Part shown: positions 1,186 to 13,787 of the stretch, piece after piece
Layout of the letters: every line of letters starts with the position of its first letter
How positions within the stretch are numbered: the stretch's first letter is position 1
Assembly: GCA_024641125.1 (NCBI GenBank)
Contig: JAHEDQ010000018.1
Span: 1 to 36,047 of the forward strand
DNA: 36,047 nucleotides
Source: Candidatus Competibacteraceae bacterium
Lineage (GTDB): Bacteria > Pseudomonadota > Gammaproteobacteria > Competibacterales > JAHEDQ01
Direction of reading: 5' to 3'
Program-made: the position numbers and the translations under genes
The notes under the pieces: generated by a model
The model's input: the letters and a program-made list of their open reading frames with translations, nothing else
What the model was told of the DNA's origin: nothing
Database searches by the model: none

Positions 1186-3468
1186 TCATCGCCGTTTCAG
1201 GTACCAGACCTGATGCCCGGCCATTACGTAGTCTTGCTCATTCAGGCCCGATCTGGCTGGCTTGGTGTTCTCGAAAACGCGAAAGCAGGCCGTCTGTCCC
1301 CGGGTGAGAGCGTCGAATCTGAGGCACAGCGTGTCGGCTTCCACCGTAGCCGTCCCGGTCTCAGAAACACCCGGTCGATACTGAAGTTTAGCAGTCCCGC
1401 CGCCGCGCAAGGTCAAATGTCCAGACGATCTGCCTTCCCGCTCGGTCAGGACGAAGTCGATACCTTCCAGCCAGGCGTGCAAGCTGGCGCTGCTCACCTG
1501 CTGGCCCGCTTCCCGTGCTGGATCGAAACCGTCGGCGTATCGGCTAACCCCGGCTCGCTTCAACCCCTCCTGGTAGCGCTGGGCGTCCGTCAGCCCCTCA
1601 TAAAAGGGGTGTAACTGCACACCTTCCAGGTTGAAGCCGGGCGCCCAGATGTCGCCGTCTATGGCCAGATAGGCGCGCGCCTTGTCCGCCATGCCGAGAT
1701 GCCCATAGGCGGCGGCGAGATAGTAGCTGTTACGCCAGGTGTAGCCCGCGATCTCACCTTCCGCCGCCTGCTCCAGATAGGCCACGGCCTGCCCGTATTG
1801 CCCCAATGCGAATGCGATTCTACCCAGTGTGCCGTAGTAACGGGCCGGTGGCTTGGGATCCAGCCGCACAGCGTGTTCCATGGCTTCCAGCGCCTCCTCA
1901 TGCTGCCCTATCGCGGTGAGCACATTGGCCTGGGCCTCGAACACACGGGAATCACCCGGTTCCAGATCCACCGCCCGGTTCACATGGGCAAGGGCTTGCT
2001 CGAAATTGCGCTCGGCCAGCGCGACTTGCGCAAGCGCCAGTTCCGGCAGTGCCATGGTCGGTTCCAGGGCCGTGGCCTGGCCCGCAAGCCTAATTGCCTG
2101 GCGTCGCGATACGGTTGGGGGTTCCACCCAGTCGTCCCAGTACTGGTTGCCGCCAAAATCCAGGGCGTAGTTCATCGCCAGTGTGGCATAGGCTTCAGCG
2201 AATCCGGGGTCGAGATCGATCGCCTTTTCCAATGCGTAGTAGGCGAGGCGGATATTGCGACGGGTGCCTATCTCCATCGCGCGCCGCCCCCGCAGATAGT
2301 ACTCGTACGCTTCCAGGTTGTCGGTTGGTTGCCGTGCCAGCTTCTGGGCATCGGCGGTGTTGAGTTCCAGGGCGAGTGCCGTCACGATTTGCCGCTTGAC
2401 CTCGTCTTGAACGTCGAACACGTCGTCCAGAACGCGATCATAGCGTTCCGCCCAAAGGTGCCCATCGGTCTCGGCGTCAATCAGCTGAGCGTTGATTCGG
2501 ATGCGATCCGCCGCGCGCCGGACGCTACCCTCCAGCACATACCGGACCCCCAGTTCCCGCGCGACATCGCGCACTTTGATCGCCTGACCTTTGAAGGTGA
2601 ACACAGAGTTTCGGGAAACCACGAAAAGGTCCGGGAGTTTGGCCAGGTCCGTGATCAGGTCTTCGGTTAGACCGTCTACAAAGTACTCCTGCTCGGCGTC
2701 GTCGCTGAGGTTTGAAAACGGCAGCACCGCGATCGAGGGGCCATCGGGTTGTTGCGCCTCAGTGGATACTGTCGCGGTCGCCTGTATTGCCGGGGTCGGC
2801 GCGGGCGGATTGAGTTGCCAATACGCGATCGCCCCGATCGCAGCGCATCCTGCACCGACCCCGACCAGGGCAAGGGTTCGGCGGCCCGACGGCCCAGAGC
2901 GCCGGGACCGACCGTCGCCCACCTCGTTCAGCAACCGATAGGCGCGAACCGGTTCGGTGATGTTCTTAACCCGTTGCTCGCCCAGAAATCCATAGCCGTA
3001 GGGCAGCTTATTGCCCAGTGCATCGTAGACGCCGCCCGAGATACAGATCCCGCCGGGCTCGGCCAGGGCCTCCAGGCGTGCCGCGATGTTGACGCCGTCC
3101 CCGTAGATGTCCTCGCCGTCGACGATGACATCGCCCAGATTGATCCCGAGCCGAAACACGATCAGCGGTTGTTGCGGTTGTTCCGCGTTCCGCTGAGCAA
3201 TGCCGCGTTGGAGCTCGACGGAACAGCTTACCGCGTCCACCACGCTGGCGAACTCGAACAGTGCCCCGTCTCCCATCAACTTGACGATGCGGCCGTGATA
3301 CCGTTCGATAAGCGGTTCGATGAGTTCCCGCCGGTGGGCATTCAATCGCGCGAGTGTGCCGACCTCATCAACGCCCATCAGGTGGCTGTACCCCACCGCG
3401 TCTGCCAGAACGATCGCCGCAAGACGTCGTTCGGCTCGTTTGTCGTTCAATCCAGAGTCTTGGGCCAT
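1186..3468 (-). CDS. Class III adenylate cyclase with TolB-like and TPR domains
   Basis: 760-residue membrane-anchored protein. Residues 12-180 form a class III nucleotidyl cyclase domain. It keeps both metal-binding Asp residues (D23 in ADAVGYS, D67 in MGDGALFEF), the adenine-selecting pair K63 and D120 (EDIYGDGVN), and the transition-state residues N127 and R131. ATP is therefore the expected substrate and cAMP the product. One transmembrane helix follows at about 199-219, then a TolB/FlgO-like domain at about 245-360 (SIAVLPFSNLSDD, LEGSVRR), then tetratricopeptide repeats to about 690. This architecture is common in proteobacteria; the cyclase would be cytoplasmic and the TolB/TPR part periplasmic. 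I chose the ATG at 3468 because the domain begins soon after it; an upstream in-frame start at 3528 would add 20 Arg-rich residues of no family resemblance. Confidence 0.88.
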   Translation of the reverse strand: MAQDSGLNDKRAERRLAAIVLADAVGYSHLMGVDEVGTLARLNAHRRELIEPLIERYHGRIVKLMGDGALFEFASVVDAVSCSVELQRGIAQRNAEQPQQPLIVFRLGINLGDVIVDGEDIYGDGVNIAARLEALAEPGGICISGGVYDALGNKLPYGYGFLGEQRVKNITEPVRAYRLLNEVGDGRSRRSGPSGRRTLALVGVGAGCAAIGAIAYWQLNPPAPTPAIQATATVSTEAQQPDGPSIAVLPFSNLSDDAEQEYFVDGLTEDLITDLAKLPDLFVVSRNSVFTFKGQAIKVRDVARELGVRYVLEGSVRRAADRIRINAQLIDAETDGHLWAERYDRVLDDVFDVQDEVKRQIVTALALELNTADAQKLARQPTDNLEAYEYYLRGRRAMEIGTRRNIRLAYYALEKAIDLDPGFAEAYATLAMNYALDFGGNQYWDDWVEPPTVSRRQAIRLAGQATALEPTMALPELALAQVALAERNFEQALAHVNRAVDLEPGDSRVFEAQANVLTAIGQHEEALEAMEHAVRLDPKPPARYYGTLGRIAFALGQYGQAVAYLEQAAEGEIAGYTWRNSYYLAAAYGHLGMADKARAYLAIDGDIWAPGFNLEGVQLHPFYEGLTDAQRYQEGLKRAGVSRYADGFDPAREAGQQVSSASLHAWLEGIDFVLTEREGRSSGHLTLRGGGTAKLQYRPGVSETGTATVEADTLCLRFDALTRGQTACFRVFENTKPARSGLNEQDYVMAGHQVWYLKRR

Positions 3469-3820
3469 TTGCACAGATCGCGGACCGCAGCGGTGGGCTG
3501 CATCGCCGCGACGGCGCCTCCCCACCATTTGAATCCTGGCAGTATAGACTGCTCGCAGGCTGCAGCCCCGGAAAGTCAGAGGGATTGGGGATTTCGGATC
3601 AAGTTGAAAAAGGACGCCTGGCAGCGCGAGGCGCAGTCCGGGTTGCGGCCCAATAGGAGGTATTGGACGGCGGCAGGATCCGGCCAGACACCAAAAGGGT
3701 TATACGCAACCGCGTCACCGGCCGGTTACTTACCCACGGGCGACTCTCACCTTTGGCAGTCCGGCTCGGTGGATGCACACGTCCCAGTAGCCCAACTCAT
3801 TCGATGCCCGCAGGGGCAAG
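3469..3820. other. Gap between the cyclase gene and the esterase pseudogene; nothing recognised
   Basis: About 350 bp with no supported gene on either strand. Reading frames running through it continue antisense frames of the cyclase gene and show no family resemblance. It should hold the promoter of the minus-strand cyclase-kelch pair, but I could not pick convincing -35/-10 boxes. Confidence 0.4.
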
Positions 3821-9344: not shown

Positions 9345-10679
9345 ATGAGATCATCTACGCGCACTCTTTTGACGCGACTGTTGGTCATAGGTGTTTCCTA
9401 CGCTGCAATTGGCACCATGCCGATCACAGCCCAGAGCGAACCAATAGGAGACGAGTTCCAAGTCAATTCAACGACCCTCGATCACCAGCGGGCGCCGGAC
9501 GTGGCAATGGATGGTCAGGGCGATTTTGTCGTTGTGTTTCAGAATTGGCTGGCCGGCACCGGCGCCAACGTGTCCGCTCAGCGTTATCGCTCGAACGGTG
9601 AACGGCTGGGGGGCGAGTTTAAGATCAATACCACCGCGAACTCCGACCTTACCCTGCCGGCCATCGCCATGACGCCCAATGGCGACTTCGTCGTCGTCTG
9701 GCAGGATTTCGGCGACGACGGCTCCGGCTTCGGGATTTTTGCCCAGCGATACAGTTCCGACGGTCAGGCGCAAGGTCCCAACATTCCGGTCAACACGACG
9801 GTCGAAGATGCTCAGCGACGCGCGGACGTCGCCATGAGCGACAGCGGCAATTTTGTGGTGGTCTGGGAAGACGATACCGTTGGCAACAACAAACGCGGCA
9901 TCCGTGGCCAGCGCTTCGATGCGTTTGGTTCTCAGCAAGGATCCGAGTTCGACATCAGCACCGATCCGGATATCGATCATACCTATCCCAAGGTGGCCAT
10001 GGACACCCTGGGTAATTTCGTTGTTGGCTGGTCGGCAGGCACCGTGGGGGCAAACCAGGACGTGGTGTTCCGTCTGTTCGACCCGAATGGGCTGCCCCGC
10101 GGACAGCCTACTCAGGTCAACGTCACCAGCAAAATGGATTCGGCCTCGGGTGTCGTCAACAACATGAGCATTGACTCCGACAGCCTGGGGAACTTTGTCG
10201 TGGCGTGGCGAGCGGACAACTACTCAGGTCCCGGCATCCCGGGTCTGGCCGTCGGTATCCTGGCGCGAAGATACGACAAGAATGGGAATCCGCTCGGTGC
10301 ACCGTTCGAAGTCCATACAGATCGAGCAAGTACAACCGGGGCACCGGAAGTCGTGGCGTTGCCGGACGGCGAATTCGCTATAGCCTACGAGGCAACGGAT
10401 GACAGTCTAACCGGCATCTTTGAGCGGGCTTACAGTTCGAATGGGCAGCCGATCGGACCGGCGGCCCAACTCAACACCACGACTTACTTGGTTCAAAGCC
10501 GCCCGGCCGTCGCCCTGAATGGGCGCAGCGGGGGTGTCGTCGCGTGGCGGGCCACCTTTGATCAGGACGGTGACCGGGACGGCGTCTTCGCCCGCTTGTT
10601 CGCATATGACGATGGCGTGTCCAGCGAGAATCGTGTGTTGAAGACCGTATGTGCTGTGGAAGGTGTATGTAGCGAATAG
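9345..10679 (+). CDS. Secreted repeat protein, probable beta-propeller
   Basis: 444 residues with a signal peptide (about 1-31, ending ITAQS) and about seven degenerate repeats of 50-60 residues. Each has an Asp/Gly turn before GDFVVVWQ or GNFVVVWE, then an acidic Gly-rich loop (DDGSGFGIF), then AQRYSSDGQ.QG..F.VNT. The periodicity and the alternating hydrophobic VVVW strands suggest an extracellular beta-propeller or beta-helix. The acidic loops could bind calcium; that is inference. The C-terminus has two cysteines (TVCAVEGVCSE) and no visible sorting motif. ATG 9345 has GGGGGAG just upstream. No enzymatic motif is visible. Confidence 0.8.
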   Translation: MRSSTRTLLTRLLVIGVSYAAIGTMPITAQSEPIGDEFQVNSTTLDHQRAPDVAMDGQGDFVVVFQNWLAGTGANVSAQRYRSNGERLGGEFKINTTANSDLTLPAIAMTPNGDFVVVWQDFGDDGSGFGIFAQRYSSDGQAQGPNIPVNTTVEDAQRRADVAMSDSGNFVVVWEDDTVGNNKRGIRGQRFDAFGSQQGSEFDISTDPDIDHTYPKVAMDTLGNFVVGWSAGTVGANQDVVFRLFDPNGLPRGQPTQVNVTSKMDSASGVVNNMSIDSDSLGNFVVAWRADNYSGPGIPGLAVGILARRYDKNGNPLGAPFEVHTDRASTTGAPEVVALPDGEFAIAYEATDDSLTGIFERAYSSNGQPIGPAAQLNTTTYLVQSRPAVALNGRSGGVVAWRATFDQDGDRDGVFARLFAYDDGVSSENRVLKTVCAVEGVCSE

Positions 10680-10765: not shown

Positions 10766-11755
10766 ATGAACATTCGTGGGCGCGTTTTCGACATCATCGC
10801 GGTTCTGGTGTTGACGCTTGGCGGGGCCGCCCATGGGGGCGCCGGGGCCAATGTGGTGGGGTTTCTTGGCATCGCCGATCAACCGAGCCACACAGCCGAC
10901 GTTGCGGCGCTCCGCCGTGGGCTCACGGATCTTGGCTATGTCAATGGCCAGACCATCGTGATCGAGGAACGCTATGCAGATGGCGGCATGGAGCGCTTTC
11001 AGGTCTTGCTCGGGGGCCTGCTGGCGGGTGATGCCAGCGTAATTGTTGTACCCGGCCTCGCTGCCGCCTTGGCCGTGCGTCGTCGTGCGCCGGACATGCC
11101 GGTTGTCGCCGTAGGGCTGCCTTCGACCGTCGTCTACCCCGATTTGTTTGCCAGTCTTCAGCGACCCGGCGGCAGTGTCACCGGGTTTTCCCATTTTGGC
11201 GAGGATCTCGCCATCAAGCGGGTGGAACTGCTTCGGGAAACCATTCCGGGACTCTCAACCGTCGCGATCCTGCACAACTCAGCAGATCCCTTGTACCGCG
11301 CCTGGGGTGAGAAAACCGAAGATGCGGCGATTCAGCAGGGGCTGAAGACCGTGCGCATTGGGCTCGAGTCCGCCGACATTTCAGATATGACCGTTGCCCT
11401 CGAGTCGGCGGCCGACAGGGGCGCCGCGGGCCTGATCGTGGTCCGTGACTTTATGACCCACACGTTGCGGAGTGACATTGTCCGGGTGGCCAATGTTTTG
11501 AATATGCCCGTGATGTCCGAGCAGCGCGTTTTCGTGGAAGCAGGCGGGCTGATGTCCTATGGCGCGAGCTTTCCGGATCTTTTCCGCCGCGCCGCAACCT
11601 ATGTCGACGCGATTCTGCGGGGGTCGAGTCCGTCCGAGATGCCGATTCAACTGGCCACGGAGTTCGAGCTGGTGGTCAATCTGACAACCGCGGAGCAACT
11701 GGGTATCACGATCCCGCCGTCAATCCTATTGCGCGCCAACCAGTTGATTCACTGA
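10766..11755 (+). CDS. Orphan ABC-type substrate-binding protein (ABC_sub_bind / TrpX-like)
   Basis: 329-residue periplasmic binding protein of the PF04392 family, with a signal peptide in the first 27 residues. Family features: an N-terminal VVGFLGIADQ strand, RGLTDLGYVNGQ, IEERYADG, the hinge region VTGFSHFGEDLAIKRVELL, and the C-terminal block VNLTTAEQLGITIPPSILLRANQLI. Some members bind aromatic amino acids; the ligand here is not predictable. No permease or ATPase gene accompanies it. Instead an adenylate cyclase with an extracytoplasmic sensor starts 55 bp downstream, which suggests it presents ligand to that sensor. ATG 10766 has AGGA seven bases upstream (10755-10758). Confidence 0.87.
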   Translation: MNIRGRVFDIIAVLVLTLGGAAHGGAGANVVGFLGIADQPSHTADVAALRRGLTDLGYVNGQTIVIEERYADGGMERFQVLLGGLLAGDASVIVVPGLAAALAVRRRAPDMPVVAVGLPSTVVYPDLFASLQRPGGSVTGFSHFGEDLAIKRVELLRETIPGLSTVAILHNSADPLYRAWGEKTEDAAIQQGLKTVRIGLESADISDMTVALESAADRGAAGLIVVRDFMTHTLRSDIVRVANVLNMPVMSEQRVFVEAGGLMSYGASFPDLFRRAATYVDAILRGSSPSEMPIQLATEFELVVNLTTAEQLGITIPPSILLRANQLIH

Positions 11756-11810
11756 CGGATACCGGTATCGACGCGCAACCGATCCCGCCCCGTTTCTGCG
11801 AGGAACTTGG

Positions 11811-13787
11811 GTGAATGGCAATGGGTTAGGTCCGCAGCCGCGTGGTCGGCTGCTGCGGAAATATGCACTCGGTCTGGCCGCCCTGGTCGCGATTGCCTTG
11901 GGTGTGAGCGGCGCGGTTCAGATCTGGTTTTCCGCGGCGGAGCAACAGCAGGCGCTCATCCGTATCCAGAGCGAGAAGGCGGCTGCGGCGGCCTCGGCGA
12001 TCCAGGGTTTCGTATCGGGAATCGAAACGCAGTTGGGTTGGACTTTGCAGGCCAGCGCCTATGCGGCCATGGGCGGCAATGAGCAGCGGCGTTTCGATTT
12101 CCTGCGTCTGCTGAGACAGGCGCCACCCATTACCAGTCTGCTGTACATCGACAGCCGGGGACATGAGCAACTCAAGGTTTCACGAATCGCCATGGACGTG
12201 GTGGGCAGCGGTGCCGATCGATCCGATGAGCCGGCTTTTACCGGTGCGAAGACCGACAGCATATGGCGGGGGCCGGTTTACTTCCACAGAGAGTCGGAGC
12301 CTTACATGATCGTTGCCGGTGCCGATCAGAATCGTGACGGCGGCGTGACGGTCGCAGAGGTCAATCTCAAGTTTATCTGGGATGTGGTTTCCGCAATTGA
12401 GGTAGGCCGAACCGGGCGGGCGTATGTGGTGGATGCGGAGGGCAGGCTGATTGCCCACCCGGATATCACTCTGGTGCTGCGACGAACCGACCTCGGCGAA
12501 CTGGATCGTGTTTCGACGGCCCTGGCCGGTGGTTCAGGCGATGCGACCGTGCTGGTGGATGATCCCGAGGGGCGGCGTGCGCTCAGCACGTTCGCACCCA
12601 TTGCGCCTCTTGGATGGTTCGTGTTCGTCGACCTGCCCGCGACCGAGGCATTCGAGGCGCTTTATGCTTCCATCCTGCGGATGGCCTGGTTGCTGTTGGG
12701 AGGGGTCGTGTTGGCCGTGGTGGCTGGGTTCATGCTGGCTCAACGGATGACCGGACCCGTCCAACGCTTGCAACAAGGCGCCGCACGTCTGGGCGCGGGT
12801 GGCCCCTTTAATCCCATCGACATCCATACCGGCGACGAGTTGGAAGCCCTTGCCGGTGAGTTCAACAACATGGCGGCACGGCTGCAGGAGTCCTACGCCA
12901 GCCTCGAACAGAAGGTTGCGCAAAGGACGCGTGAACTCCAGGGGAAGAACACCGAGCTTGAAGCGCTCTCCACAAAACTTGCGAAGTATCTGTCGCCGCA
13001 GGTGTATGACTCCATTTTCGCCGGCAAGCAGGAAGTGAAACTCGCCAGCCGGCGTAAAAAGCTCACCGTTTTCTTTTCCGACATCGCCGGGTTTACGGAA
13101 ATCGCCGACATCATGGAATCGGAGGATCTCACGCAACTGCTCAATCACTACCTGAGCGAAATGTCGATGGTGGCCCTGGAATACGGGGGGACCATCGACA
13201 AATTTGTCGGGGACGCGATCATGATTTTTTTTGGCGATCCGGATACCCGTGGAGTCAAGGAGGATGCGCTTGCCTGTGTCGGCATGGCGATCGCGATGCA
13301 AAAGCGGATTCGGGCGCTGGGCACCATTTGGCGAAATTCCGGTATTGAGCGACCACTGACCTGCAGGATGGGAATCCACACCGGCTATTGCACTGTGGGC
13401 AATTTTGGCAGTGACGATCGCATGGACTACACCATCATCGGCGGCGCCGTTAACCTGGCGTCGCGGCTTGAGCACGAAGCGGTGCCAGGTGGCATTCTGA
13501 TCTCGTATGAGACCTATGCACATGTCAGGGAGACCGTTTTCTGCGAAGAAATGGGGGACATTCAAGTGCGCGGTATCGGCCATGCCATCGCCACCTATCG
13601 AGTGGTCGATCTGTACGACAATCTGAGCGAGTCGAGCGATGCGCAGTGTCTGGAAATGCCCCACCTGAGACTCCAGGTCAATCCCGAGCAGATGTCCAGG
13701 CAGGAGCGCATCGAGGCCGCTGCCGTTCTGCGGAAAACCCTTGTTCGTCTGCAACAGGGTCCAGATGAACCGGTGGATCTCGATTGA
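11811..13787 (+). CDS. Membrane-bound adenylate cyclase with periplasmic sensor, HAMP and class III catalytic domain
   Basis: 658 residues: TM1 about 17-39, a periplasmic sensor of about 250 residues (40-290) with a Cache-like core (GRTGRAYVVDAEGRLIAHPD), TM2 290-311, HAMP 309-362 and a short coiled coil. The class III cyclase domain follows at about 415-595. It has metal ligands D424 (FFSDIAGF) and D468 (VGDAIMIFFGDP), K464, T541 in DYTIIGGAVNLASR, N548 and R552. The Lys/Thr pair is the adenine-selecting combination of CyaB1-type bacterial cyclases, so cAMP is the expected product, with two catalytic sites per homodimer. GTG 11811 has AGGAA at 11801-11805. It lies 55 bp after the binding-protein gene, most likely in one operon. 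Confidence 0.9.
   Translation: MNGNGLGPQPRGRLLRKYALGLAALVAIALGVSGAVQIWFSAAEQQQALIRIQSEKAAAAASAIQGFVSGIETQLGWTLQASAYAAMGGNEQRRFDFLRLLRQAPPITSLLYIDSRGHEQLKVSRIAMDVVGSGADRSDEPAFTGAKTDSIWRGPVYFHRESEPYMIVAGADQNRDGGVTVAEVNLKFIWDVVSAIEVGRTGRAYVVDAEGRLIAHPDITLVLRRTDLGELDRVSTALAGGSGDATVLVDDPEGRRALSTFAPIAPLGWFVFVDLPATEAFEALYASILRMAWLLLGGVVLAVVAGFMLAQRMTGPVQRLQQGAARLGAGGPFNPIDIHTGDELEALAGEFNNMAARLQESYASLEQKVAQRTRELQGKNTELEALSTKLAKYLSPQVYDSIFAGKQEVKLASRRKKLTVFFSDIAGFTEIADIMESEDLTQLLNHYLSEMSMVALEYGGTIDKFVGDAIMIFFGDPDTRGVKEDALACVGMAIAMQKRIRALGTIWRNSGIERPLTCRMGIHTGYCTVGNFGSDDRMDYTIIGGAVNLASRLEHEAVPGGILISYETYAHVRETVFCEEMGDIQVRGIGHAIATYRVVDLYDNLSESSDAQCLEMPHLRLQVNPEQMSRQERIEAAAVLRKTLVRLQQGPDEPVDLD

Follow-up and report, generated by a model that had tools for sequence, protein, structure and literature searches.

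The solute-binding protein (SBP) and the receptor-type class III cyclase encoded side by side in the window, a 36,047-nucleotide stretch of Candidatus Competibacteraceae DNA, probably form one SBP-gated sensing unit with a cyclic-nucleotide output, in the manner of LuxPQ and NspS-MbaA. The SBP gene is the only member of family PF04392 among the several thousand genes of the genome (4.76 Mb; 94% complete), and eight further genomes show the same pairing; its place beside this receptor is therefore more than chance. An ORF check located both genes, 55 bp apart, at the coordinates given by the initial annotation, with the following features:

10766–11755, + strand: orphan PF04392 (ABC_sub_bind) solute-binding protein, 329 residues, ATG start (Pfam, 126 bits), sole PF04392 gene of the genome
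10766–10849, + strand: probable Sec signal peptide of the SBP, about residues 1–28 with an approximate boundary (MNIRGRVFDIIAVLVLTLGGAAHGGAGA; N-terminal hydrophobic segment with its peak at residues 3–21; by inspection)
11756–11810, + strand: intergenic stretch of 55 bp with a Shine-Dalgarno-like GAGGAA 6 nt upstream of the GTG (sequence and scan)
11811–13787, + strand: receptor-type class III cyclase, 658 residues, GTG start, ordered TM, dCache, TM, HAMP, coiled coil and catalytic domain (Pfam)
11850–11939, + strand: first TM segment, about residues 14–43 (hydropathy; helix 11–84 in the model)
11940–12629, + strand: periplasmic dCache_1 domain, residues 44–273 (Pfam, 59 bits; alignment; AF2 model; PDB dCache matches)
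12681–12737, + strand: second TM segment, about residues 291–309 (hydropathy)
12735–12890, + strand: HAMP domain, residues 309–360 (Pfam, 39.8 bits)
13050–13601, + strand: class III cyclase catalytic domain, residues 414–597 (Pfam, 90 bits; residues checked)

A scan of the 55-bp intergenic stretch revealed no promoter- or terminator-like sites above chance, and an Rfam search of the window returned zero matches. Directly upstream of the SBP, positions 9345–10679 (+) encode a 444-residue predicted secreted protein with internal GDFVVVWQ-like repeats, for which no Pfam match was obtained. A second class III cyclase-domain gene of the window (1186–3528, − strand; 780 residues) has a TPR-like C-terminal part, a weak NCBIfam match to TIGR04510, and K and D as base-selecting residues. 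The source genome has some 20 or more class III cyclase genes (20 scored of 50 candidates), many with different sensors.

The receptor is a two-TM/HAMP class III cyclase, as had been annotated, and its domain order is confirmed by Pfam and hydropathy; the periplasmic domain, which had been left unnamed, is a dCache domain. The matches exceed their cut-offs in each case (59 versus 45 bits for dCache_1, 39.8 versus 25 for HAMP, and 90 versus 21.9 for Guanylate_cyc, PF00211). The AF2 model of the sensor folds as a dCache domain with a pLDDT of 89.6, and its best matches are dCache domains of kinases and chemoreceptors, an amino-acid chemoreceptor among them. By eye, the R and W residues of the dCache_1AA amino-acid motif seem absent, and the PDB matches lie mainly on the proximal half.

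The motifs FFSDIAGFT, DKFVGD, DYTIIG and NLASR were read in the catalytic domain, and the class III set is intact: the metal aspartates D424 and D468, the transition-state residues N548 and R552, and the adenine-selecting K464 and T541 all occur at the previously claimed numbers and in the expected motifs. The K and T are common to the window cyclase, its Ensifer homologue and the closest paralogues, and this adenylate-cyclase-like pair indicates that the window enzyme probably makes cAMP. The earlier statement that the module sets cAMP output is consistent with this pair in the window protein and the Ensifer homologue, and less certain for most other members. The remaining direct fusions mostly carry R, H, N, C or Y and G, A or S at one or both base-selecting positions, and in the receiver-linked cyclases (L072, L091, L099, L112, L133 and others) R or H is mostly combined with G or A.

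The SBP matches PF04392 over residues 35–327 with a Pfam cut-off of 25.9 bits, and misses the TrpX equivalog NF041285 of NCBIfam (99 bits versus a cut-off of 390). The source genome has 25 BPD_transp_2 permease matches. These were searched with the permease of the L061 cassette, an apparent PF04392 transporter of a relative that comprises an SBP, an 8-TM protein and an ABC-type ATPase. In the 94% complete assembly, and for the permease component only, no homologue was found at E ≤ 1e-3. The same query gave a match of 64% identity in the Ensifer control, located beside its other PF04392 gene and not beside the receptor-linked one. The absence of a permease, claimed by the initial annotation for the locus, therefore extends past the window, and the unlinked cognate permease that it had named as a counter-finding did not appear in the source genome with this query. 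In relatives, the PF04392 genes of L054 and L061 stand in what look like ordinary transporter cassettes.

Homologues of the whole cyclase were searched in 385 alphaproteobacterial genomes with the SBP absent from the queries. Besides Ensifer, this yielded four full-length sensor-cyclase proteins, plus one with a weaker sensor match (L196); a Rhizobiaceae search added another (L211), and a scan with the sensor contributed the direct fusions L102, L127 and L142. Among 369 gammaproteobacterial genomes, the direct fusion was found in the window alone. Single-protein scans of viral_contigs and genome_contigs with P0001 returned no relatives. An adjacent PF04392 SBP is present in eight of the ten other full-length sensor-cyclase homologues, with one lacking it and one at a contig end; this was the neighbourhood check proposed initially, and the pairing is clearly not confined to the source genome. 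Gene arrangements differ among the eight. The SBP lies upstream of the cyclase in L070/L197, L102/L199, L127/L198, L188 (two SBPs) and L211, where the two genes overlap by 4 bp; it is divergent in L189 and L191, and downstream in L190. No SBP was found in the 20-kb stretch around the direct cyclase of L196/L214, and L142 starts approximately 0.1 kb from the contig end. The occurrence of the same pairing in unrelated bacteria suggests that the SBP switches the enzyme on or off.

The sensor is found far more widely on other outputs. When genome_contigs was scanned with the sensor alignment only, the SBP not being part of the query, 80 loci were recovered from Alpha-, Beta- and Gammaproteobacteria, Rokuibacteriota, Methylomirabilota, Nitrospirota and Chloroflexota. 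The output is a histidine kinase in 66 of them and a cyclase in 4, the other 10 being cut off or unassigned; the kinase-heading sensors are approximately 50% identical to that of the window. PF04392-type SBPs occur at 51 of the 80 loci, with no SBP in the fetched stretch at the other 29. Where more than 1.3 kb of upstream sequence was available (n = 70), an SBP was present in the fetched stretch at 45 loci, and directly upstream on the same strand at 30. A separate cyclase-domain gene, mostly receiver-fused, lies within 3.5 kb at 34 of the 44 kinase loci with enough downstream sequence; examples of the receiver-linked cyclases were confirmed by Pfam.

Five of the nearest in-class relatives of the SBP also adjoin receptors with a matching sensor and differing outputs. 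L051 and L052 have a histidine kinase with a receiver, and their sensors are 54% and 49% identical to that of the window; the output is a histidine kinase in L053, PAS-GGDEF-EAL in L056 and GGDEF-EAL in L057. The SBP/sensor module of the initial annotation is thus supported, but its cyclase-only view did not extend to the histidine-kinase and receiver-cyclase versions. As a separate observation, the PF04392-type SBP genes of L056, L057 and L065–L067 adjoin GGDEF-EAL or histidine-kinase genes that have only distantly related sensors.

Several loci carry five to seven divergent PF04392 genes in tandem upstream of one receptor gene (L091:66-6998, L133:3-6313 and L117:1987-6875), the largest array being the seven SBPs of L091. 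Tandem SBPs within one locus share 27–73% identity, and no permease was recognised by size and hydropathy adjacent to the arrays of L091 and L117. We tentatively suggest that PF04392 SBPs, alone or in tandem with different ligands, may converge on one conserved dCache receptor as a widespread and undescribed class. Its output could be cyclic-nucleotide synthesis, either direct or relayed by a histidine kinase and a receiver-linked cyclase; the latter has a non-canonical pair of base-selecting residues and may make a product other than cAMP.

Comparison of the parts of the receptor indicates that the SBP belongs with the sensor, because close catalytic paralogues with other sensors are without an SBP. 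The own-genome cyclases L044–L046 have catalytic domains 53–63% identical to that of the window and unrelated sensors, and the rhizobial cyclases L212 and L213 are 67% identical catalytically and have other sensors; no SBP is encoded near any of them. In a quick tree of catalytic domains, those of the window and Ensifer cyclases group with the own-genome paralogues and stand clear of the remaining direct fusions, a part of which falls near receiver-linked cyclases. A single clade for all direct fusions was rejected on this quick tree (AU p = 5.2e-5), and the sensor therefore became joined to cyclases on more than one occasion. Because the window and Ensifer domains fall with own-genome paralogues, the idea that the window catalytic domain came from a receiver-linked cyclase gene was rejected. 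On the sensor tree, 7 changes of the cyclase label are required, of which starred branches force at least 4; together with the non-monophyly of the fusions, this implies that the sensor swapped outputs repeatedly and met cyclases by more than one route. The median pairwise identity is 52% for the periplasmic domain, a value inflated by the selection of sensors by sensor similarity, versus 36% for the SBPs. A conserved periplasmic domain with varied SBPs is what a single conserved receptor surface serving a diversity of binding proteins would produce. SBP and sensor distances correlate only weakly (r = 0.27, a value attained in 2 of 2000 permutations), and shared ancestry confounds the correlation.

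A fused-chain model was built from L112, a homologous pair whose SBP and sensor share one frame (stop codons read through), and was predicted as a single chain from 121 alignment rows, four of them paired. Both domains of the AF2 model are confident, with a mean pLDDT of 90.4, and the pTM is 0.60; with two equally sized domains, this value does not demonstrate a fixed SBP-sensor arrangement. In Foldseek, the SBP half superimposes on 3lkv, on 3lft in complex with L-Trp and on CD0873, and 5ere (Dret_0059) was also matched; the nearest solved relatives of the SBP thus include the L-Trp complex and ligand-bound CD0873. For the ligand-sensing module proposed at the outset, the conserved SBP-sensor linkage, the kinase versions and the lack of a cognate permease argue in favour, and the fused-chain model speaks neither for nor against docking.

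The gene pair, its domains and catalytic residues, the conserved linkage, the absent PF04392-type permease and the exchange of outputs are observed, and we infer docking, a ligand, a direction of control and a nucleotide product. In the proposed mechanism, the exported SBP would capture a small molecule in the periplasm and, loaded or empty, would dock on the dCache domain of the receptor. The resulting change would travel via TM2, the HAMP domain and the coiled coil, reach the dimeric class III catalytic domain and set the rate of cyclic-nucleotide synthesis, with cAMP as the most likely product. The input module, a PF04392 SBP with a dCache/HAMP sensor, is common to proteobacteria and other phyla. 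Most relatives signal to a histidine kinase, often with an adjoining receiver-linked cyclase gene, and in the window the sensor is fused directly to a cyclase.

The adjacency of SBP and receptor genes is not proof of interaction. In characterised SBP-kinase couples the genes are neighbouring in 10 of 11 cases, yet neighbouring pairs without interaction have also been reported, since nearby SBPs showed no binding to the AgtS and AruS sensors in two neighbouring sets (PMC11113362). The dCache domain could accordingly sense a small ligand of its own, as dCache domains usually do and as the amino-acid chemoreceptor and kinase domains among its best folds would suggest, with the SBP co-encoded for scavenging or buffering that ligand and making no receptor contact. 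The 29 sensor loci without a nearby SBP agree with such an arrangement. We nevertheless consider it unlikely, because the window SBP is without a PF04392-type permease, SBP linkage is seen again in eight further direct cyclases and many kinase versions, and the periplasmic domain is strongly conserved though the SBPs vary.

That the SBP serves a transporter encoded elsewhere, the cyclase being merely co-transcribed or co-regulated, is more improbable still. The 25 BPD_transp_2 permease matches could be shared, and the assembly is 94% complete; however, the L061 query that found its counterpart in Ensifer retrieved none in the source genome, the receptor linkage is kept across divergent, upstream and downstream arrangements, and the SBP arrays of L091 and L117 are flanked by no recognised permease. 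Marginally less probable again is a reversed or shared control, in which the apo-SBP is docked as an inhibitor and released by ligand, or several SBPs from elsewhere compete for the receptor. Up to seven tandem SBPs beside one receptor would suit competition, which is unexpected here because the genome has a single PF04392 gene. The binding protein of LuxPQ remains receptor-bound while the ligand changes its state, which would suit the docked inhibitor; the direction of control, however, cannot be read from sequence. The SBP-gated receptor cyclase thus remains our preferred reading.

SBP-activated receptor families comprise chemoreceptors, sensor kinases, protein kinases and c-di-GMP enzymes, with adenylate cyclases absent (PMC11113362). 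The partners listed by the initial annotation, histidine kinases and chemoreceptors, are both correct, but diguanylate cyclases/phosphodiesterases and protein kinases had been omitted. Searches of the open-access PMC literature turned up no account of an SBP-linked class III cyclase or of PF04392 proteins together with cyclases, in agreement with its remark that it knew of no described cyclase version with this family. If the class III cyclase branch is true, outside nutrients could set cyclic-nucleotide levels directly, and transporter-less PF04392 proteins would gain a function. The SBP lends itself to ligand screening by ordinary binding assays, and the signal of a receptor cyclase would thereby become directly testable.

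LuxP-LuxQ is the autoinducer-2 receptor of Vibrio, in which the binding protein acts on the periplasmic domain of LuxQ. The proposed likeness is that a type I periplasmic binding protein works on a two-TM receptor through its dCache-like domain, and the LuxQ Cache domain is among those without a cofactor or ligand of their own (PMC8694187). By contrast, the SBP here is of family PF04392 and the output a class III cyclase, and sequence searches gave no match to LuxP or LuxQ structures. In NspS-MbaA, a polyamine and c-di-GMP system, the nucleotide-messenger enzyme has a periplasmic domain and is under the control of an SBP (PMC8967002, PMC8079147), as is proposed here, but MbaA is a GGDEF/EAL c-di-GMP enzyme, whereas the present receptor is a PF00211 class III cyclase paired with a PF04392 SBP. 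SBPs of the TrpX kind (PDB 3lft, 3lkv, 6hni) share family and fold with the window SBP, which differs in scoring below the NF041285 cut-off, lacking a permease and being receptor-linked. Dret_0059 (PDB 5ere) joins an SBP fold and a dCache fold, listed as dCache-cytosine (PMC8694187), within one polypeptide; its SBP is of another family and has no cyclase tie. The SBP-linked dCache histidine kinases (L051, L052, L091 and others) have a homologous sensor and an adjoining PF04392 SBP, and differ from the window receptor in their kinase output, commonly with a receiver-linked cyclase gene nearby.
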